Source: Ariolimax columbianus
Lineage: Eukaryota; Mollusca; Gastropoda; Stylommatophora; Arionidae
Direction: 5' to 3'
DNA length: 64,000 bases
Assembly: GCA_036924085.1 (NCBI GenBank)
Contig: JAVGWX010000005.1
Location: 81,706,666-81,770,665, forward strand
Shown here in pieces: positions 1,020-48,584 of this stretch. Position numbers and translations under genes: made by a program. The notes under the pieces are model-generated. The model was given only the letters and a program-made list of their open reading frames with translations, was not told where the DNA came from and did not search any database. Position 1 is the first letter of the stretch, and each line of letters opens with the position of its first letter.

Positions 1020-1962
1020 TATTTCCAGAGGTGGTAGAAAATATACCAGGTATTGCAAACAAAAACTGCCAGATTGAAAAAGAAAGGAGAGATACTACCC
1101 TAAGCTTCATAACGAAAAGCTACCCAAGCATGGACTGGACCCATGCATACACCGACGGTTCTGTAACAAACACAACACAGAACGGAGGGGCAGGAGCATT
1201 CCTGAACCTACCAAATGGCAGAAAAATAACACTGTCATTCGCTACTGGTAAGTACACAAGCAATTTCAGAGCGGAGGCAGAGGCACTGAGGGCGGCAGTG
1301 GAAGAAATGGTGACACACAGTGAAAATGAAAGCCATATAGTCCTGCTTACAGATGCTCTCGCCGTAGTCACAGCGCTAAAAAGCCTGAAAAATACTGAGC
1401 TTAATGACTTAAGAGCAGCACTCTGCAAACTGTGCCAGCAGTCCGCACCAAAAAGGGTAGTGGTACAGTGGGTCCCATCACACTGCAACATCCAATCAAC
1501 GAGGAGGCAGACAGACTGGCAAAAGAAGGTGCAAGACTACCACAAACAGATACTAGTATGACGTACGAAGAGTCAAAACGGCTTATTAAAGCCAGATACA
1601 TGACCAAATGGGAAACCGAACATACTGGTTACACCAAAAACGATGCCTATTACCAGTTGAACCGAAGAGAGCAGGTCGTTGTCTTCAGACTTCGCACTGG
1701 CCACAATAGACTGAGGTACCACCTATTCAACAAATTGAAGATAGGGTGTATCGACGAATGCCCGTGCGGTACTGGTAAAATGACCGCTGAACATCTGCTG
1801 CAGAACTGCCCGACATACGAGGATCAGAGAGAGCAGATGTGGCCATCACCAGTGGAACTGCAAGACAAGCTCTATGGCAGTGGCGACAGTCTCAGGATGA
1901 CCGCCGCTTTTTTCGAAAAAAATAATGGTTACTGTCTGACTGCGTACGAAGAAGAAGAAGAA
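1020..1962 (+). mobile_element. 5'-truncated RNase-H LINE insertion
   Basis: A non-LTR retrotransposon 3' end, 943 bp, with a perfect 13-bp target duplication (GAATGAAGTCTCC at 1007-1019 and 1963-1975) and a (GAA)n tail after GCGTACGAAG. It encodes an RNase H domain: YTDGSVT near 1150, an E in the NFRAEAEAL motif, LLTDA, and WVPSHCNI. After a one-base frame break near 1490 come NEEADRLAKEGA and a C-terminal cysteine/histidine region (CPCGTG...HLLQNCP). The RNase H plus C-terminal zinc-knuckle-like module is known in the I, Ingi, Nimb and R1 groups; the clade is unresolved. The frame break makes it non-autonomous now. Confidence 0.88.
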
Positions 1963-2746: not shown

Positions 2747-3470
2747 AATCGTTGTAGAACGTCCTGTAATCGTTGTAGAACCTGCTGCCATCCGTATAGC
2801 GCGTGCTGCCATCCGTATAGCGCGTGCTGCCATCCGTATAGCGCGTGCTGCCATCCTTATAGCGCGTGCTGCCATCCTTATAGCGCGTGATGTCATCCTT
2901 ATAGCGCGTGATGTCATCCTTATAGCGCGTGATGTCATCATTAAAGGGCGTGATGTCATCATTAAAGGGCGTGATGTCATCATTAAAGGGTGTGATGTCA
3001 TCCTTATAGTGTGTGCTTTCATCATTAAAGGGCGTGATGTCATCCGTATAGAGTGTGCTGTCATCATTAAAGGGTGTGATGTCATCTTTATAGAGTGTGC
3101 TGTCATCCTTATAGAGCGAGCTTTCATCATTAAAGGGCGTGCTGTCATCCTTTTAGAGCGAGCTGTCATCATTAAAGGGCGTGATGTCATCCTTATAGAG
3201 CGAGCTGCCATCATTAAAGGGCGTGATGTCATCCTTATAGAGCGAGCTGTCATCATTAAAGGCCGTGATGTCATCCTTATAGAGCGAGCTGTCATCATTA
3301 AAGGGTATGATGTCATCATTATAGTGTGATATCCTCATTAAATCGTGTGATGTCATCGCTATAGAGCGTGATATCCTCATTAAAGGGTGTGATGTCATCA
3401 TTATAGAGCGAGCTGTCATCATTAAAGGGTGTGATGTCATCCTTATAAAGCGAGCTGTCCTTATTAAAGT
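2747..3470. repeat. 21-bp minisatellite
   Basis: Units such as GTGCTGCCATCCGTATAGCGC and later GTGATGTCATCATTAAAGGGC, changing to a 42-bp alternation. Because 21 is a multiple of three, ~200-codon frames exist on both strands; these are not genes. Confidence 0.92.
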
Positions 3471-3489
3471 ACGTGATGTTCTCTTCATC

Positions 3490-4120
3490 CGGCGTGTAGA
3501 TAGTGGTTATAATACTTTAAAGATAGTCCTGTGTAGCAAAGCGAATGCATTCATGGCAAAGTGACCAGCTTGACTGACTCTCACGGGCAGTGCACACCAT
3601 TCTCTCCAACAGTGGTTGGGTACTTTCTTACAGCTAGACAGCCATACATTTATAAATGACTGGCAGATCCGCCTTGGATAAAGCGAAACGTTTTATGAGT
3701 CAAGAAGTGACCTTCATTTGGTTATATTAACTGAGTATGGCATATTTAGGTCATGTTGTAGGCTTCCTCGTACAATGATTTTGCTAAAAGTATGTGCTGT
3801 GGTACAAGCTATTTATTGCAGTAACAGAAACAGTGCATACCTTGACACTATTTTCCAGATGTATCAAGCTACATGGCATGCGACAAAAGTATTTAAGCAG
3901 CTTACGAGCAATGACAGTGCAGGTTGTCTGTTCACTTGGTGACCCGACGCCTGTTGATGAACTGTTCTGGCAGGCTTTCTTAGTTATATGTTGAGAAGAA
4001 TCAATAAGACTGAACTATGCACAGACTGTTAGGTAAAGGTGGTATTAAAGTAAACACTGCCGCCGTGATCAATTATTGTTACTACTATGGACCTAACTGC
4101 AGTCGGGTTTTCGTTCTTCA
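3490..4120. other. Unassigned sequence
   Basis: Short frames of 66-120 codons overlap here. Only the end of one (from about 4120) is recognisable, as LINE; the rest is not coding by any evidence visible. Confidence 0.5.
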
Positions 4121-19555: not shown

Positions 19556-20540
19556 TGATATAGTCCGGTTATCTTTTAATTGTGAGTTTCGTCATCCGCC
19601 ATGTTTCCGCTCTATATGTAAACACCAACTTCACAACTGAGCTGAAGATCTCTACCTTGTTGTGGATGTTGTTCATTTCAGACTGCTGTATGGTTTTCAA
19701 CATGGCGAAGCCACTTTACCATTCTTTTCTCTCTTGGTTTATACATTCTCATCAGCAACACTTGCTTTGTCTATGATGCTCCCTAGCTATGTGAACTCGT
19801 CCCACTATCTTGCTCATCCACTGGTCATTATATTAGATTGCTAAGAGCTGTGTCGTTGATAGCATTTATTTTGTATCTTAGTTACTAGGAGATTGGGTCT
19901 TCTTCTTCTTCTTCATCGTACGCTGTTTACAGCGATATTTACGTTGCACTATTTTATTTTGTTAAGCCAGTGGCTCAGTGCATCCGATTTCAACAGGCGT
20001 TTCTGTAGGGTTGCCCTCCTTAGCCTTTGGCTGTCCCCAGCCTAACTGCAAGGCAGCAGTTGTTTTTGGTCAGAGTTGTCTCTCTTGGGAAGTTGTCTTG
20101 CAGGACTATCGAGTCTTCCCTACTCGTGTCTATAGGGTTTGGCAAAGATATGATGGACTATGTTCTAGTTTGTACTATCCCGGAAGAGAGGCAGTCCAGT
20201 GTGACTTTGTCCCACGATCGTCACGTCCTGCCAGAAACGTGCATATGCATGTGAGTGAGGTATCTCTTTGCTCCCTTTATTTTCTCGGCTCATCTGCAGT
20301 GATGGTACGCCTAGCATTCCCCGCCACCCGGGAGGTTGTCACAATAGGGCAGGACGTGCAATGTCCGCTGGACTGCAGGAGATTGGGTCTAACATGTCTG
20401 TTTTCTTCTGCACTTTGGTAATATGTGTGACGTATAAGAGCGCCTGTGTGATTCCTGTCCTCGTGTGTGGTTCAGATACTTGAACTCTACTTAAACAGGA
20501 CATATCAAGACTCATGCATTTAACATGCGAAACCAGCAAC
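19556..20540 (-). pseudogene. LINE RT thumb fragment, interrupted by the retroposon at 19901
   Basis: On the minus strand the block KVEIFSSVVKLVFTYRAETW with RMTK (about 19570-19660) matches the LLYGxETW region. Upstream, LGSIID-like residues are readable near 19780. The 476-bp retroposon and its 14-bp duplication sit in it. The upper limit is approximate. Confidence 0.5.
19901..20376 (-). mobile_element. Separate retroposon insertion of the same 3' module
   Basis: A 476-bp insertion on the minus strand, flanked by a perfect 14-bp duplication (AGGAGATTGGGTCT at 19887-19900 and 20377-20390). Its 3' end (left side here) carries the trinucleotide tail. It matches 34966-35454 at about 97% by eye and begins at the same base as the shared module. 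It is either a 5'-truncated copy of the rDNA retroposon or a full copy of an independent SINE-like unit. It interrupts an older minus-strand LINE fragment. Confidence 0.9.
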
Positions 20541-22534: not shown

Positions 22535-23870
22535 TGATGATAACCCATGCCAGCAAGATATTATTACGTATTATCATGAAGAGACTAGAAAAGAAAGTAG
22601 AATATTAAATACATGAAATGCAGGCAAGATTCAAACAGGCAGAGGCACAAGAAATCACATCTTCAATTTGAGAAACATTTTTAAAAAATGCAAAGATTAC
22701 AATCCTGACCTTCATACATTCTTCATAAATTACAGCAAAGCTTTTGACTGTGTACGCGATCAGCAACTATGGCAAATAATGGAAAACATGGGCTTTACAA
22801 CACATCTGATACAGCTAATGAAACACTTTACAGTGGCCAACAATCTACTGTCATAATTAACGAAGGCACCTCAGGTTGGTTTGAGATCATACGTATATAT
22901 CCGCAAAGGTGTTAGGCAAGGCTACATCCTCTCTCCCTACGTATACATCCGCAAAGGTGTTAGGCAAGGCTACATCCTCTCTCCCTACGTATATATCCGC
23001 AAAGGTGTTAGGCAAGGCTACATCCTCTCTCCCTACGTATACAACATATACACGGAGAATATCGTGCAAAAGGTAAAAATAGATGAAAACTATGAATTTC
23101 GGCCCATTCTCAATTGGAGGAAAAGAGAATCCAGAACTAAGATATGCAGATGACACAATTAAGATATCATACAGCGTTGAAGGCTTGGTACATTTGCTTA
23201 CGATCGTTCAGCACAGTGAAGATCAGAATCTTTTCTTTAAATAAAAAAACCAAATATAATGTCCGTTGACAGACACAGACCCTAACTTAAGATCACTATT
23301 GGTAATGAAGAAATTGAACACAGGGATTACTTTGAATACCTTGGCTGTTTGATAACAAACGATGGGGATTGTGCAGGGGAAATAAGACGATTGTCCATAG
23401 CGATGCAGAAATTGAATAGTATGCAAAATATGTAGCATAATACTAACAAAGAATTAACATTGAAGATCCTCGGACCATGCGTATTCTCTGTGGCAATGTA
23501 CAGGTGCTAGACATGGACCTTCACACAAATATTGAGATAGATGATCGAGACAAAAGGCTACAGAAGAATCCTGAAATTATCTTGGGTAAATAAAAAATAA
23601 AAAATAAAGCCATCCTGCAAGATCTGAGTGTGGAAGAGAAATGGTTTATAAACCATCTTATATCTCGGAAACTTATGTTTTTCTGTCACATCAAGCGCCA
23701 ATACGGACTGGAAAAAGCTGTTCTGGAGGGTATTGTTCCAGGAAGACGAGGCAGAGGTCGATCAAGGCGTAGATGTGCACAAGACATCAAGAACACCCTA
23801 TAAATGAACATGTAGCAGGCGGGTAGACTGACTGCTGATCGAGATTCATATCGAATGGCTTTCACAGCTG
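22535..23870 (+). pseudogene. LINE RT relic with in-frame triplication of the GVRQG motif
   Basis: RT blocks in order: an ASKI-like stretch with ILRIIMKRLEKKVEY (about 22550), YSKAFDCVRDQQLWQIMENM (22735), RKGVRQGYILSP three times in frame (22887-23045), an RYADDT-like block at about 23140, EYFEYLGCL-like residues near 23330, and C-terminal VEEKWFINHLISRKLMFFCH and GRRGRGRSRRRC (23640-23790). The last residues (RDSYRMAF) run directly into the minisatellite at 23862. Several frameshifts; not functional. Confidence 0.8.
22887..23045 (+). repeat. 48-bp in-frame triplication of an RT motif
   Basis: Three copies of a unit encoding YVYIRKGVRQGYILSP, the RT block GVRQGxxLSP, so the LINE frame stays open through the array. 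Confidence 0.93.
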
Positions 23871-24400
23871 ACCTGGCGCTGCTTATGTTAGATACCAGAG
23901 TGGGTCATAGCTGACCTGGCGCTGCTTATGTTACATACCAGAGTGGGTCATAGCTGACCTGGCGCTGCTTATGTTAGATACCAGAGTGGGTCATAGCTGA
24001 CCTGGCGCTGCTTATGTTAGATACCAGAGTGGGTCATAGCTGACCTGGCGCTGCTTATGTTAGATACCAGAGTGGGTCATAGCTGACCTGGCGCTGCTTA
24101 TGTTAGATACCAGAGTGGGTCATAGCTGACCTGGCGCTGCACAAGTTAGATACCAGAGTGGGTCATAGCTGACCTGGCTCTGCCTAAGTTAGATATCAGA
24201 GTGGGTCATAGCTGACCTGGCGCTGCCTAAGTTAGATATCAGAGTGGGTCACAGCTGACCTGGAGCTGCCTAAGTTTTATACCAGAGTTGGTCATAGCTG
24301 ACCTGGCGCTGCCTAAGTTAGATACCAGAGTGGGTCATAGCTGACCTGTCGCTGCTTATGTTAGATACCAGAGTGGGTCATAGTTGTCTAAGTTAGATAC
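23862..24400. repeat. 47-bp minisatellite continuous with a LINE 3' end
   Basis: About 11 units of CTGACCTGGCGCTGCTTATG with TTAGATACCAGAGTGGGTC. The first unit overlaps the last LINE codons (AFTADLALL). Confidence 0.93.
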
Positions 24401-25300
24401 CAGAGTGTATCCAGGCTAGTAAACGCTGCTTACATTAGATACCAGAGTGAATCCAGGCTGATCGCGCGCTGCATACATTATATACCAGAGTGTGTCCAGG
24501 CTGATCACGCGCTGTTTACTTTAGATACCACGGTGTGTCCAGGCTGATCATGCGTTGCTTACATTAGAGTACCAGAGTGTATCCAGGCTGATCGCGTGCT
24601 GCTTACATTATATACCAGAGTGTATCCAGGCTGATCGCGTGCTGCTTACATTATATACCAGAGTGTATCCAGGCTGATCGCGTGCTGCTTACATTAGATA
24701 CCAGAGTGTATCCAGGCTGATCGCGTGCTGCTTACATTAGATACCAGAGTGTATCCAGGCTGATCGCGTGCTGCTTACATTATATACCAGAGTGTATCCA
24801 GGCTGATCGCGTGCTGCTTACATTAGATACCAGAGTGTATCCAGGCTGATCGCGTGCTGCTTACATTAGATACCAGAGTGTATCCAGGCTGATCGCGTGC
24901 TGCTTACATTATATACCAGAGTGTATCCAGGCTGATCGCGTGCTGTTTACATTAGATACCAGAGTGTATCCAGGCTGATGGCGTGCTGCTTACATTAGAT
25001 ACCAGAGTGTATCCAGGCTGATCGCGCACTGATTACATTAGATACCAAAGTGTATCCAGGCTGATCGCGCGCTGATTACATTAGATACCAGAGTGTGTCC
25101 AGGCTGATCGCTCGCTGATTACATTAGATACCAGAGTGTGTCCAGGCCGACTGTGCGCTATTTACATTAGATATCACATTGTGTCCAGGCCGACTGTGCG
25201 CTATTTACATTATGTATCACATTGTGTCCAGGCCGAATGCGCGCTATTTACATTACATACCAGAGTGTGTCCATGCTGACCTGGTGCTGCTTACGTATTT
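24400..25300. repeat. ~43-bp minisatellite, diverged continuation
   Basis: About 20 units of TATCCAGGCTGATCGCGTGC with TGCTTACATTAGATACCAGA. It shares GCTTA-TTAGATACCAGAGTG with the 47-bp array on its left, so the two are one lineage. Confidence 0.92.
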
Positions 25301-32382: not shown

Positions 32383-32396
32383 AAACACAACATACA
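32383..32396. repeat. Target-site duplication, left copy, of the rDNA retroposon
   Basis: AAACACAACATACA, identical to 35455-35468 immediately after the (GAA)n tail. Confidence 0.92.
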
Positions 32397-33047
32397 TCTG
32401 GGGTAGTTGTCTCACCGCCGCGAATCAATTTTAACCAGTGTTCGTAAAGCGATCTCAGTCCCGCCAGGCGGAGCGATAGCGTGGGCTTGCGGAAAACGCT
32501 TGCTCGCCTTTCCCCGTAGAGGTATTGGGATGCGGTTGTTTTTTTTGCGTCTCCTCCGCCGAGGTGCGCTGCTCTGGTCCGTATCGAGAAACGTTGTCAG
32601 TCGGTGGTGATTTATCTAAGACTTATAGCAGAGCTCGACAGTTCGTCTCGCTGGTGGTCAGACTCTCGCAAAGAGCTTGTGACCGGCAAATGGAAAGAAG
32701 CAGGAATCGTGCCTGAAGGCCCTGTGTTCTCCCGGGGACCAACCCTCGAGAGAAGGGCAGGCCGGCAGGCCAAATTGTCTCTAGTCCCAGTGAAATTCAT
32801 CGCGGGGGTCGTTGGGATCCGTTCTGCACAGAGCGCTGCCATCCCTCTTCGAGCGAGCCTGGTCGGTCGGTCGGTCGTCTGGTGTGTGTAGGGGCCCCTG
32901 TCAGGCGGTCCTAGGTCGACGGAGTGAGGGACGGGGTAGAACAACCGTCCGTTCGTTCGTCAGTCGGTCCCTGCGGCCGTCCCAGTGAGGCTTTTTACAC
33001 ACCCGTCCTCCGCCGACCGGTGTGTGCGGTACGTACGTCTCCGACAG
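32397..33047 (+). other. 5'ETS-like leader of the rDNA retroposon
   Basis: About 650 bases directly upstream of the 18S 5' end, more GC-rich than the surroundings, with repeated GGTCG units near 32870 and 32965. By position it should be external transcribed spacer, and its first base would then lie near a Pol I start site. This is inferred from position and composition only; no ETS or promoter sequence was available for comparison. Confidence 0.55.
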
Positions 33048-33194
33048 ATATCTGGTTGATCCTGCCAGTAGTCATTTGCTTGTCTCAAAGATTAAGCCAT
33101 GCATGTCTAAGTTCACACTGTCTCATGGTGAAACCGCGAATGGCTCATTAAATCAGTCGAAGTTCCTTAGATGACACGATCCTACTTGGATAAC
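33048..33194 (+). pseudogene. 18S rRNA 5' terminal fragment
   Basis: Begins TCTGGTTGATCCTGCCAGTA, the universal eukaryotic 18S 5' end, and continues through CATGCATGTCTAAGT and GCGAATGGCTCATTAAATCA to CCTACTTGGATAAC. It then jumps, with no intervening helices, to the V4 region. About 500 nt of 18S are missing, so this cannot make a functional small-subunit RNA. Confidence 0.93.
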
Positions 33195-33684
33195 TTGGTC
33201 CGGCTCGCGCCGGTTCACTGCCCGTTGTCTCCTGCCCTACCGTCTGCCGGCTCTCTCCCATGGGTGCTCTTCGCTGAGCGTCCTGGGTGGCCGGCGCGTT
33301 TACTTTGAAAAAATTAGAGTGTTCAAAGCAGGCCTCGGCTGCCTGAATAATGGTGCATGGAATAATGGAATAGGACCTCGGTTCTATTTTGTTGTTTTTC
33401 GGAACTGGAGGTAATGATTAACAGGGACAAACGGGGGCATTCGTATTGCGGCGTTAGAGGTGAAATTCTTGGATCGCCGCAAGACGAGCTACTGCGAAAG
33501 CATTTGTCAAGAATGTTTTCATAAATCAAGAACGAAAGTCAGAGGCATGAAGACGATCAGATACCGTCGTAGTTCTGACCATAAACGATGCCGACTAGCG
33601 ATCCGCAGGAGTTGCTTCGATGACCCTGCGGGCAGCTTCCGGGAAACCAAAGTGTTTGGGTTCCGGGGGAAGTATGGTTGCAAA

Positions 33685-33733
<49 letters not shown>

Positions 33734-33757
33734 GCGGCTTAATTCGACTCAACACGG
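33195..33757 (+). pseudogene. 18S rRNA central fragment (V4 to about position 1150)
   Basis: Contains long blocks of conserved 18S: TTTACTTTGAAAAAATTAGA, GGAATAATGGAATAGGACC, AGAGGTGAAATTCTTGGATC, CCATAAACGATGCCGACTAG, and AAAGGAATTGACGGAAGGGC at 33695. The V4 stretch (33195-33300) has the CTCTTCGCTGAG hallmark seen in mollusc 18S. A few substitutions break otherwise invariant positions. After about 33757 the sequence leaves 18S and becomes 28S-like. Confidence 0.93.
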
Positions 33758-34131
33758 CCAACACTGAAATGATTGACATGCCGAGACCACTTTCCTTGGG
33801 TCTATCTAATATGGAACGGGCGCTGGATTTAGACCCTCGGAAATCTAGGGTTATGCCCTCTGTGGCTCGGTTGGTCGGCATTCAGTGTTTGATAAAGGAA
33901 TTGACGGAAGAGCACTACCAGGAGTGGAGCCTGCGGCTTAAATTGACTTAAGACGCCAATACTGTGGAATAACTGTCAAATCGAAAGCACCTTCGTGGGG
34001 TCTAATAGTGAACATGTGCTGGTATTAGACCCACGGAAGACAGGTCAGTCTCTTAACCCCCTAATGAAAGAGCGTCTGCTGTGGTAATCTGGTCTTAACC
34101 CTGCAGAAATCGCAGGTTCCAGAAACTTGGC
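33695..34131 (+). repeat. Duplicated 18S/28S junction module
   Basis: A block starting with 18S AAAGGAATTGACGGAAG and running into a 28S-like segment (TCTAAT...GAACGGG...TAGACCCTCGGAA) occurs at 33695-33892 and again, diverged, at 33894-34131 (start-to-start 199 bp). The second copy runs further into 28S (GAAGACAGGTCAG, then CGCAGGTTCCAGA). The same unnatural 18S-28S junction being present twice means the fusion arose first and was duplicated afterwards. Confidence 0.75.
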
Positions 34132-34643
34132 CATTGACAAACTAAAAAGCCCTCTATTGATACGTCCGGTCTAATATTGAACGGGTGCTGGAAATAGACC
34201 CTCGGAAGACAGGTCAGTTTTACCCTACTAATGACAGGGCGTTGCTACGGTAATCCTGCTCAACTCGAGAGGAGCCGCAGAAATTTGGTTCACGTACTAG
34301 GCTGATAAGCCAACGGCGCGAGGCTACAAGGTGAGGGATTACGGCCGAACGCCTCTAAGCAAAAATATCCCCCAAAAGCTCAGCACGATTGCAAAGGGAG
34401 GCTTCGACATGGTGGGGACCTGGGGCTCCCGCTCCAGCCCCACCCGGTCGAGCCGCAGAATGAGGTCTCTGCCGTCCGCCGATCAAAGCGGGCGGGAAGC
34501 TGCTCGATATTCACCCCATACGGCGATGAGGTATGAAACCATTTGTAGAAGACTTAGTTCTCGGTCGGGGTGCCCTAAGCAGTAGATCAGCTACCGAACT
34601 GCGAACTGCTGATACTCAACCCTTGACCACGAGATATGTCCGC
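34132..34643 (+). pseudogene. 28S rRNA 3'-terminal domain (third, longest copy)
   Basis: From GGTCTAATATTGAACGGG (34168) through GACAGGTCAGTTTTACCCTA, GGTAATCCTGCTCA, GGCTGATAAGCCAA and GAACGCCTCTAAG to a segment resembling the extreme 28S 3' end (AAACCATTTGTAGAAGAC, then CCCTTGACCACGAGA). The sarcin-ricin loop at about 34259-34274 reads CTCAACTCGAGAGGAG where functional 28S has the invariant AGTACGAGAGGA, so it is not a working rRNA. The end near 34640 is approximate. Confidence 0.85.
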
Positions 34644-34659
34644 ACACCAGGCGAACAAC

Positions 34660-34885
34660 ATCTCCATGCAATGACCAGGCTTGTCCCCTGGTCAAATGCA
34701 CTATTTCGAGAGGAATCACAGGTCGCTGACATTTGGTCCACGTGCTTGGCTGATAAGCTAACATCTGAGGGACTACGGCCGAACGCCTCTAAGCCAGAAT
34801 CCCGCCCTAAATCTCAGCACCGCTGTGATGGGAGGCTACAACATGGCTGGGGCTTGCGTCTCAGCCCAGCCCGGTCGAGCGGCAG
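34660..34885 (+). pseudogene. 28S rRNA 3' domain, fourth partial copy
   Basis: Repeats the segment around CGAGAGGAATCACAGG, ACATTTGGTCCACGTGCTTG, ACATCTGAGGGACTACGGCC and GAACGCCTCTAAGCCAGAAT, followed by a GC-rich stretch. It lies after the 28S 3' terminus of the previous copy, an order that does not occur in normal rDNA. Confidence 0.8.
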
Positions 34886-34965
34886 AAATGCACCTGGTAA
34901 AATGCACTACCGCCTCGCTCTTTGCCTCTGTCTGCTATCAGTCATCCCAATGGACGCAGAAGAGA

Positions 34966-35454
34966 TGCAGTCCAGCGGACATTGCACCTCCTGCCCTATT
35001 GTGACAACCTCCCGGGTGGCGGGGAATGCTAGGCGTACCATCACTGCAGATGAGCCGAGAAAATAAAGGGAGCAAAGAGATACCTCACTCACATGCATAT
35101 GCTACGTTTCTGGCAGGACGTGACGATCCTGGGACAAAGTCACACTGGACTGCCTCTCTTCCGGGATAGTACAAACTAGTACATAGTCCATCATATCATT
35201 GCCAAACCCTATTGACACGAGTAGGGAAGACTCGATAGTCCTGCAAGACAACTTCCTAAGAAAGACAACTCTGACCAAAAACAACTGCTGCTTTGCAGTT
35301 AGGCTGGGGACAGCCAAAGGCTAAGGAGGGCAACACTACAGAAACGCCTGTTGAAATCGGATGCACTGAGCCACAGGCTTAACAAAATAAAACAGTGCAA
35401 CGTAAACATCGCTGTAAACAGCGTACGAAGAAGAAGAAGAAGAAGAAGAAGAAG
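34966..35454 (+). mobile_element. 3' module of the rDNA retroposon with (GAA)n tail
   Basis: A ~490-bp segment almost identical (about 14 differences by eye) to the reverse complement of 19901-20376. It has no tRNA-like head or coding frame and ends GCGTACGAAGAAGAAG. The upstream linker 34886-34965 is not recognised and is absent from the other copy. It could be the 3' UTR of a LINE or a SINE body; it is the likely recognition tail for reverse transcription. Confidence 0.85.
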
Positions 35455-35468
35455 AAACACAACATACA
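35455..35468. repeat. Target-site duplication, right copy, of the rDNA retroposon
   Basis: Second perfect copy of the 14-bp duplication. Past it, the interrupted LINE RT frame continues (motifs KSMSIGEVNKS and later VEYLGATIN). Confidence 0.92.
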
Positions 35469-42949: not shown

Positions 42950-44350
42950 AGAGCACTACGAGGAAGTGAGATTGGGTCTTGATCAGTATGTTTCACCTGA
43001 CCCAGAGCACTATGAGGAAGTGAGATTGGGCCTTGATCAGTATGTTTCACCTGACCCAGCGCACTTTGAGGAAGTGAGATTGGGTCTTGATCAGTATGTT
43101 TCACCTGACCCAAGGCACTACGAGGAAGTGAGATTGGGTCTTGATCAGTATGTTTCACCTGACCCAGGGCACTTTGAGGAAGTGAGATTGAGTCTTGATC
43201 AGCATGTTTCACCTGACCCAGCGCACTACGAGGAAGTGAGATTGAGTCTTGATCAGTATGTTTCACCTGACCCAGGGCACTTTGAGGAAGTGAGATTGAG
43301 TCTTGATCAGTATGTTTCACCTGACCCAGGCACTACGAGGAAGTGAGATTGAGTCTTGATTAGTATGTTTCACCTGACCCAGGCACTACGAGGAAGTGAG
43401 ATTGAGTCTTGATCAGTATGTTTCACCTGACCCAGGCACTACGAGGAAGTGAGATTGAGTCTTGATCAGTATGTTTCACCTGACCCAGAGCACTATGAGG
43501 AAGTGAGGTTGAGTCTTGATCAGTATGTTTCACCTGACCCAGAGCACAACGAGGAAGTGAGGTTTGGTCTTGATCAGTATGTTTCACCTGACCCAGAGCA
43601 CTACGAGGAAGTGATATTGGGTCTTGATCAGTATGTTTCACCTGACCCAGGGCACTTTGAGGAAGTGAGATTGAGTCTTGATCAGTATGTTTCACCTGAC
43701 CCAGGGCACTTTGAGGAAGTGAGATTGAGTCTTGATCAGTATGTTTCACCTGACCCAGGGCACTTTGAGGAAGTGAGATTGAGTCTTGATCAGTATGTTT
43801 CACCTGACCCAGGCACTACGAGGAAGTGAGATTGAGTCTTGATCAGTATGTTTCACCTGACCCAGGCACTACGAGGAAGTGAGATTGAGTCTTGATCAGT
43901 ATGTTTCACCTGACCCAGGCACTACGAGGAAGTGAGATTGAGTCTTGATCAGTATGTTTCACCTGACCCAGAGCACTATGAGGAAGTGAGGTTGAGTCTT
44001 GATCAGTATGTTTCACCTGACCCAGAGCACAACGAGGAAGTGAGGTTTGGTCTTGATCAGTATGTTTCACCTGACCCAGAGCACTTTGAGGAAGTGAGAT
44101 TGAGTCTTGATGAGTATGTTTCACCTGACCCAGGGCACTTTGAGGAAGTGAGATTGAGTCTTGATCAGTATGTTTCACCTGACCCAGGGCACTTTGAGGA
44201 AGTGAGATTGAGTCTTGATCAGTATGTTTCACCTGACCCAGGGCACTTTGAGGAAGTGAGATTGAGTCTTGATCAGTATGTTTCACCTGACCCATGGCAC
44301 TTTGAGGAAGGGAGATTTGGTCTTGATCAGTATGTTTCACCTGACCCAGA
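42950..44350. repeat. 54-bp minisatellite with 483-bp higher-order duplication
   Basis: About 26 units of TGATCAGTATGTTTCACCTG, ACCCAGGGCACT and GAGGAAGTGAGATTGAGTCT. Short 53-bp units occur in triplets at 43325, 43378, 43431 and again at 43808, 43861, 43914, exactly 483 bp later. 54 is a multiple of three, so both strands stay open (18-residue units EEVRLSLDQYVSPDPGHF and QVKHTDQDSISLPQSALG), and the 53-bp units break the frame. No splice or start context supports a gene. Confidence 0.95.
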
Positions 44351-48076: not shown

Positions 48077-48432
48077 TTCTTCTTCTTCGTTCGTTCTCAA
48101 TCTCCCGCTACCAAACCCTGAAAGGGCTTAAGTAGCAGAATGTAGTCCAGAGAACGGAATGCGTTGTGTCGTAGTTTACAGCTTGACTGTGATATTTGCA
48201 CCTTTCGGTCCAACACATCTGACTTCAGCAAGCATTTTTTGAGTATCGGGTTAGCATCACTTATTCGATCCCTTCTCCTTAGCCAGCCTGCCCTGCTGCA
48301 GCCTGTTATCTAGGATCACCACGTGGAGGTGTAGAAGGGTCTTGGCAGCTTTGGTTCGCTGGCCCTGACGCTAGCAGTCAGCTATGGGTCGCTGACCACT
48401 GCAGCTTATGCGCTGCTCAGCATCTTGATCCC
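48077..48432 (-). mobile_element. SINE family A, near full-length copy 3
   Basis: Runs from a (TTC)4 tail to the 5' end GGGATCAAGATGCTGAGCAG read on the minus strand, the same terminus as the copy at 58108. No clear target duplication could be seen. The 66-residue frame crossing its edge is not a gene. Confidence 0.88.
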
Positions 48433-48584
48433 ACTGTGGAATGACTTCCTTTCTTTTGCATTTACTAATGGTAGGGCGATTAAAGTTGTTCTGACGGCCA
48501 GAAAATGAACATGACTAATGACTCTGACAACTATCAATTTTCCTATTTTCTTCTTTGATGCTAGTTCTGAACAGGATGGTGTCT

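Follow-up and report, generated by a model that had tools for sequence, protein, structure and literature searches.

A 3,058-bp insertion at positions 32397-35454 of a 64,000-nucleotide stretch of the genome of the slug Ariolimax columbianus (contig JAVGWX010000005.1 of assembly GCA_036924085.1; the whole stretch is referred to below as the window) belongs to a dispersed family of retroposons, the members of which are composed of a leader resembling a 5' external transcribed spacer (ETS), pieces of 18S and 28S ribosomal RNA (rRNA), a module and a (GAA)n tail. Probably, a long interspersed nuclear element (LINE) took up pre-rRNA as its 5' region, and the window element is an internally deleted derivative of this LINE, mobilised in trans. 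An origin of the element from a LINE by internal deletion is suggested by the 28S end and the module, which also precede a LINE endonuclease frame elsewhere in the genome. The family, its ends, its target duplications, its truncated copies, the terminus common to element and LINE, and the endonuclease frame beyond the junction of 28S end and module are directly observed.

The insertion is bracketed by a perfect 14-bp target-site duplication (TSD), AAACACAACATACA, of which the window contains no other exact copies. When 20,000 14-mers were drawn at random from the window, two had a perfect match 2.5-4 kb upstream, and 1,823 had one at any place within the preceding 8 kb, tandem repeats included. 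A sequence-only reading of the window had described a single retroposed insertion from 32397 onward, with 18S and 28S fragments in transcription order and a LINE-type tail. The TSD-bounded unit, its length and its tail are confirmed; its start is most likely the A at 32396, which is shared with the duplication, because an A precedes TCTGGGG in 23 of 24 copies of the family. The rRNA parts do stand in the order in which they are transcribed (leader, 18S with its first base at 33049, and 28S pieces to 34639), and Rfam models place them at 18S positions 1-1280 and at the 28S end, position 3401. At gathering score, 18S and 28S are the only Rfam families found in the window, and no rRNA likeness was found between the 28S pieces and (GAA)10. 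The leader comprises about 653 nt and has a GC content of 0.59 and an observed/expected CpG ratio of 1.09, compared with 0.27 and 0.56 in the flanks. The 18S stretch, which we take to end near 33798, is followed by a fragment (33799..33892) that is presumably derived from 28S. The body of the insertion is more than simply deleted rRNA, because it contains two internal repeat pairs: 33893-34038 repeats 33694-33842 (77%), both members spanning the identical 18S-to-28S junction, and 34724-34887 repeats 34276-34460 (71%). After 33195, 531 nt of 18S that the family majority contains are missing from the window copy, and the full copy L012 holds unbroken 18S (model positions 4 to 1116, 893 bits). 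With the bacterial code, ARAGORN detected no tRNA in the window, and when a chance reading frame of the element was used as query against proteins, 76 candidates resulted, none with E ≤0.001.

A search of the assembly (2.294 Gb, 401 contigs) with the whole element yielded 66 matches at 90-100% identity (40 scored of 8,991 candidates); the copies taken from this search were chosen by likeness to the window copy and form a biased sample. Among the first 30 loci, 24 bear the 5' end TCTG[GA][GT]G[TC]A[GT]TTGTCTC, which is preceded by A in 23 of them, and L004 has a variant 5' end. TSDs of at least 8 bp, all of them different, flank 20 of the 24 loci with an intact 5' end; the duplication of L013 measures 27 bp and includes the GAA tail into which this copy inserted. 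Ten further places covering the body were fetched with their flanks (L031-L040), and six of these (L031-L035 and L040) have both the 5' end and a duplication, several with internal gaps and L031 with T instead of A before TCTG; the other four are truncated, L036 among them with a clear 12-bp duplication. Copies that are 5'-truncated and have TSDs are L036, L045 and the insertion at 19901-20376 of the window. The last had been taken in the sequence-only reading for the module as its own insertion; an independent module family at this place was rejected, the copy being a truncated member of the rRNA-bearing family.

From 24 copies a majority sequence of 3,547 bp was derived, from which the individual copies differ by 1.2-2.9%. 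Most variant states are confined to a single copy (1,192, against 186 shared by two copies and 50 by three or more), and this star-like spectrum, which fits few sources, suggests a recent burst of amplification. The exact 5' 21-mer ATCTGGGGTAGTTGTCTCGCC occurs 3,243 times in the assembly (1,601 + 1,642) and its reversed control not once; with the leader as query, all 40 scored matches (of 3,307 candidates) cover the leader, 39 of them from base 1. Dozens of the examined loci share the internal structure. The family thus shows the features of a LINE-mobilised retroposon, namely a fixed 3' end, a simple tail, 5' truncation, and many dispersed copies with separate target duplications. R elements occupy a fixed rDNA site, whereas the slug copies are dispersed with differing flanks. 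A family with common internal junctions, one 5' end and separate duplications, as the sequence-only reading had anticipated, is thus present in the genome, and the opposite outcome that it had considered, a chimera found once, did not occur. Three copies (L013, L037, L038) are located in or beside GAA tails of the LINE, which may therefore be preferred insertion sites. Two other collections contain no match to a 28-mer from the module (0 places in viral_contigs, 0 in genome_contigs), and an 18S pattern likewise had 0 places in viral_contigs.

More distant relatives were obtained with the 5.8S model (RF00002; 40 scored of 53,434 candidates, on many contigs), which returned 20 loci. The element is matched by 18 of these; L056 and L057 fail at the threshold used. 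The 5.8S-bearing loci hold the 18S 3' end, internal transcribed spacer (ITS) 1, 5.8S and ITS2 in varying sets, and the window family is devoid of these pieces. The module is found in 14 of the 20 within the stretch obtained and the rearranged 18S/28S core in 11, so that the core junction must be old and was not created at the window locus. In ten loci (L046, L047, L050, L053, L054, L060 and L062-L065), the 28S 3' end plus about 64 nt joins the module at one single point, and the repeat at 34704..34892 of the window element is missing from this junction in ten of the 20, including all three loci with an endonuclease frame. By eye, the 5' ends of the 5.8S copies recur at three places in ITS1, near TACCTGAGCGTCC, TTTTTGCTAACTTCGCC and TCTTGTCC, the groups being L046, L048, L054, L055 and L059; L052, L056 and L057; and L050, L053, L060, L062 and L065. 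Such recurrent ends would be expected of pre-rRNA cleavage sites or of strong stops in reverse transcription. In L051 (at about 1971) and L057 (at about 1917), with 5.8S on the plus strand, a common junction leads from ITS2 (CCCTGGCTG / CCCAGGCTG) to the leader start ATCTGGGG; past it, L051 continues with leader (about 90%) and then 18S 1-543 at 100% to the majority. This junction possibly reflects template jumps off the 5' end of the element or a rearranged subfamily.

The module continues into an endonuclease frame in three of the 20 loci (L046, L053 and L063); in L046 the frame reads ...IRILQWNAEGVINKKL...IDVACIQETHLNNNHKFSIRGYQ.... L062 and L065 extend about 30 and 140 nt into LINE frame sequence before the locus ends, and L064 stops inside the module. 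The stretch that follows in L063 corresponds to Exo_endo_phos_2, endonuclease-reverse transcriptase (Pfam PF14529, E=1.2e-9), and the L053 piece alone gave only sub-threshold Pfam matches. With the endonuclease piece as query, all 150 scored matches (of 16,424 candidates) cover 82 or 83 of 83 amino acids at 86-100%, some of them containing stops. About 3.4 kb downstream of an endonuclease copy with an open frame of 805 amino acids lie RNase H and CTGACAGCGTAC(GAA)4; the 1.4 kb read there (L067) starts about 2.4 kb downstream of this copy, and its RNase H is 78% identical to that of the LINE fragment in the window. The window element ends with ...TGTAAACAGCGTAC(GAA)n and agrees with the LINE end in L067 in its last nine bases and in the tail. 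The element thereby shares, in the manner of the SIDE elements discussed below, a 5' part with an autonomous LINE (28S end, module and endonuclease frame in L046, L053 and L063) and also a 3' terminus, ACAGCGTAC(GAA)n, which with nine nucleotides and the tail is of modest length. A hairpin common to the two termini was considered and rejected: the module end can form one (CGCTG TAAA CAGCG), but the end of the window LINE scarcely folds, and recognition of the terminus would therefore depend on sequence and tail. The description of the element as an rRNA body with a LINE-type tail is right but incomplete: the two were not joined by chance, as the 28S end and module also stand before the endonuclease frame.

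The ancestral element would be a gastropod LINE with an apurinic-type endonuclease, RNase H, a (GAA)n tail and pre-rRNA as 5' region, arranged in the order leader, 18S, variably ITS1-5.8S-ITS2, 28S 3' end, about 64 nt, and LINE proper. The LINE would thus have come first and would itself carry the leader, and the window family would have arisen from it by a deletion reaching from just past the candidate start of open reading frame 2 (ORF2) to the last ~9 nt, ACAGCGTAC, plus (GAA)n. The protein of the LINE, acting in trans, would recognise this terminus and reverse-transcribe the RNA by target priming; copying to the very 5' end of the RNA would yield the fixed A-TCTGGGG start, and early stops the 5'-truncated copies. 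The pre-rRNA may have been captured when an rDNA unit was transcribed together with a LINE inserted just beyond its 28S gene, or else by a template jump; the order in which the pieces stand, with 64 nt after the 28S end, suggests the former. Several points weigh against this reading. No single locus was read from the leader through ORF2 to (GAA)n; only three endonuclease-bearing copies were read upstream, all from the 5.8S search, and among these only L063 has 18S, within which it is cut off. Between the C9 endonuclease match and L067, as in the 5' region of L067, the sequence is unread. On contig C1 up to 76.3 Mb, none of five endonuclease matches has a listed exact 5' 21-mer within 10 kb, so that LINE copies with the exact leader 5' end may be rare. 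In addition, four of the 24 loci with an intact 5' end (L008, L015, L026 and L029) have no 8-bp duplication, and the family copies behind the 66 matches were selected by window likeness.

The direction of events could also be reversed: an independent non-autonomous retroposon built from rRNA and a LINE tail would have existed first and would later have given its body to a LINE as new 5' region. In favour of this order, intact 5' ends number in the thousands for the form with the leader, whereas none of the LINE copies was followed as far as the leader, and template jumps of LINE proteins to stable RNAs are documented (PMC3414825) and proposed (PMC13174262) in the parts of these papers drawn on here, but the non-autonomous form keeps the module and the candidate ORF2 start, which fits a deletion from a LINE, and the 5.8S relatives, including the three with the frame, keep rRNA pieces (18S 3' end, ITS1, 5.8S, ITS2) that are missing from the window family; we regard this order of events as rather improbable. 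Repeated retroposition of pre-rRNA processing intermediates by LINE machinery, with no stable family at all, would agree with the recurrence of 5' ends at few ITS1 sites in the 5.8S loci (by eye), but normal pre-rRNA cannot yield each time the rearranged core of 11 and the module of 14 of the 20 loci, and this explanation is very unlikely.

Single-locus chimeras of 28S and LINE-1 are known (PMC13174262, in the part drawn on), and a one-off template jump at the window locus would be of this kind; it is refuted by the 66 matches of the genome search and retains practically no likelihood in view of thousands of copies with the same 5' end and dozens of loci with the same internal structure. An artefact of assembly or of rDNA contamination, which might be suspected as rDNA is poorly assembled (just two exact 47-mers of the 28S R2 site), is equally far-fetched and was rejected: the copies lie on many contigs, their flanks and duplications differ, their divergence from the majority (1.2-2.9%) is mostly private, and the exact 5' 21-mer is found 3,243 times.

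From its position next to 18S base 1, we infer that the leader is the host 5' ETS. A start at A with an invariant first nucleotide is consistent with a genuine RNA 5' end, at which either transcription starts or the RNA is processed. The promoter of RNA polymerase (Pol) I lies mostly upstream of the start, and a retrocopy beginning at +1 would therefore lose most of it; 5S carries a Pol III promoter, 18S and 28S do not. Transcription of the family might proceed from downstream elements in the leader, from few source copies in or beside rDNA, or by Pol II. A more far-reaching proposal, which we put forward as a possibility less likely to be right than wrong, is that an abundant animal LINE lineage took over pre-rRNA including its transcription start, that the pre-rRNA sequence serves it as promoter and 5' untranslated region and lets Pol I transcribe it outside rDNA, and that its internally deleted partner filled the genome with thousands of rRNA-bearing copies. 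Host rDNA itself is barely assembled, as the two R2-site 47-mers indicate, and the assembly contains 29 exact 18S 3' ends. Some of these are located on small contigs (C222:67320 and 79607, 12.3 kb apart in one orientation; four on C50; C190; C298); they are possibly remnants of the true rDNA array, the C222 pair being a candidate rDNA unit.

Table 1 Parts of the rRNA-bearing element and further (GAA)-tailed insertions in the window
Feature	Position	Strand	Remarks
5' TSD copy AAACACAACATACA	32383..32396	+	final A common to TSD and element 5' end
Leader (A)TCTGGGGTAGTTGTCTC..., 5' ETS-like	32396..33048	+	abuts 18S base 1; probable ETS, judged from position
18S-derived stretch	33049..33798	+	Rfam model 1 to ~1280; 3' limit approximate
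28S-derived fragment (presumed) fused to 18S, first 18S/28S junction	33799..33892	+	limits approximate
Second, diverged 18S/28S junction segment	33893..34166	+	77% to 33694-33842
28S 3' end	34167..34639	+	reaches last model position (3401, Rfam)
~64 nt past 28S end	34640..34703	+	module directly next in 10/20 5.8S relatives
Second partial 28S-end copy	34704..34892	+	71% to 34276-34460
Module, corresponding to LINE 5' region ahead of ORF2	34893..35417	+	candidate ORF2 start ATG at 35361
ACAGCGTAC, last nucleotides common to element and LINE 3' terminus	35418..35426	+	
(GAA)10 tail	35427..35456	+	
3' TSD copy	35455..35468	+	overlaps tail
5'-truncated family copy (majority 3088-3548)	19901..20376	-	14-bp TSD AGACCCAATCTCCT at 20377-20390 and 19887-19900
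5'-truncated (GAA)-tailed LINE, RNase H and C-terminal part	1020..1962	+	13-bp TSD GAATGAAGTCTCC at 1007-1019 and 1963-1975

The window LINE has 107 protein relatives, and the three that are listed with an organism name are all from gastropods (Batillaria, Bradybaena and Plakobranchus). Another (GAA)-tailed, non-coding insert is present in two copies on the minus strand, at 584-898 with a 10-bp duplication (GAACCAAAAC) and around 48077-48480, where no duplication was found. Minisatellites are numerous in the window (101 rows), e.g., at 42953-44349 (54-bp unit) and 23867-25294 (43-bp unit). Majority positions 3018-3297 have a 74% relative at L041 4083-4367 (= L007 4519-4803), by eye near a reverse-transcriptase-like reading, and part of the module may thus also occur in other repeats.

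If the LINE did acquire pre-rRNA in this way, the most heavily transcribed cellular RNA would be a part of a mobile element instead of its landing site. The gain of a new 5' region by a LINE and the function of a Pol I start sequence inside a retrocopy would become testable, as would the effects of thousands of near-intact 18S segments on rRNA sequencing, snail barcoding and ribosome assembly. In genome annotation, the copies could pass for rDNA or rRNA pseudogenes.

To our knowledge, a 5' region of the 18S-28S sort is known from no described element, and within the portions of the open-licence PMC literature used for this comparison, no described dispersed LINE with such a region was recognised. 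The R2 SIDE and R2/R1 SIDE of Drosophila are non-autonomous elements that combine the 5' part and the 3' end of a LINE by internal deletion and are mobilised by LINEs (PMC3414825, here and below as far as the parts drawn on describe them). The slug element resembles them in its presumed internal-deletion plan; R2/R1 SIDE also has 14-bp TSDs, and SIDEs are co-transcribed with rRNA. SIDEs are characterised by fixed rDNA sites and a ribozyme (PMC3414825), whereas the slug copies are dispersed and carry 18S and 28S inside the element. TbRIME and Ag-Sponge are likewise non-autonomous elements of the type without long terminal repeats that are said to stem from internal deletion, and the rRNA body of the slug element sets it apart from them, none being mentioned for either in that part of the source (PMC3414825). 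With SINE28, a short interspersed nuclear element (SINE), the family shares a 28S 3' end in a dispersed retroposon (excerpts of PMC3576234 and PMC8010984); in contrast to SINE28, which has the 28S 3' end only as its head, leader and 18S precede 28S in an element of about 3.5 kb, and a LINE endonuclease frame lies behind the module in relatives. SINEs derived from 5S rRNA similarly combine an rRNA head with a LINE-like 3' end (PMC8010984, same excerpt). The known 28S/LINE chimeras also join 28S to LINE sequence, mostly in sense orientation, but comprise 18 loci with segments of 50-482 nt, and the account seen in part reports no amplifying fusion family. Known are therefore SINEs with 28S or 5S, single rRNA/LINE chimeras, rDNA-bound R elements and SIDEs; new is an rRNA-type 5' region on what appears to be the internally deleted partner of a LINE.

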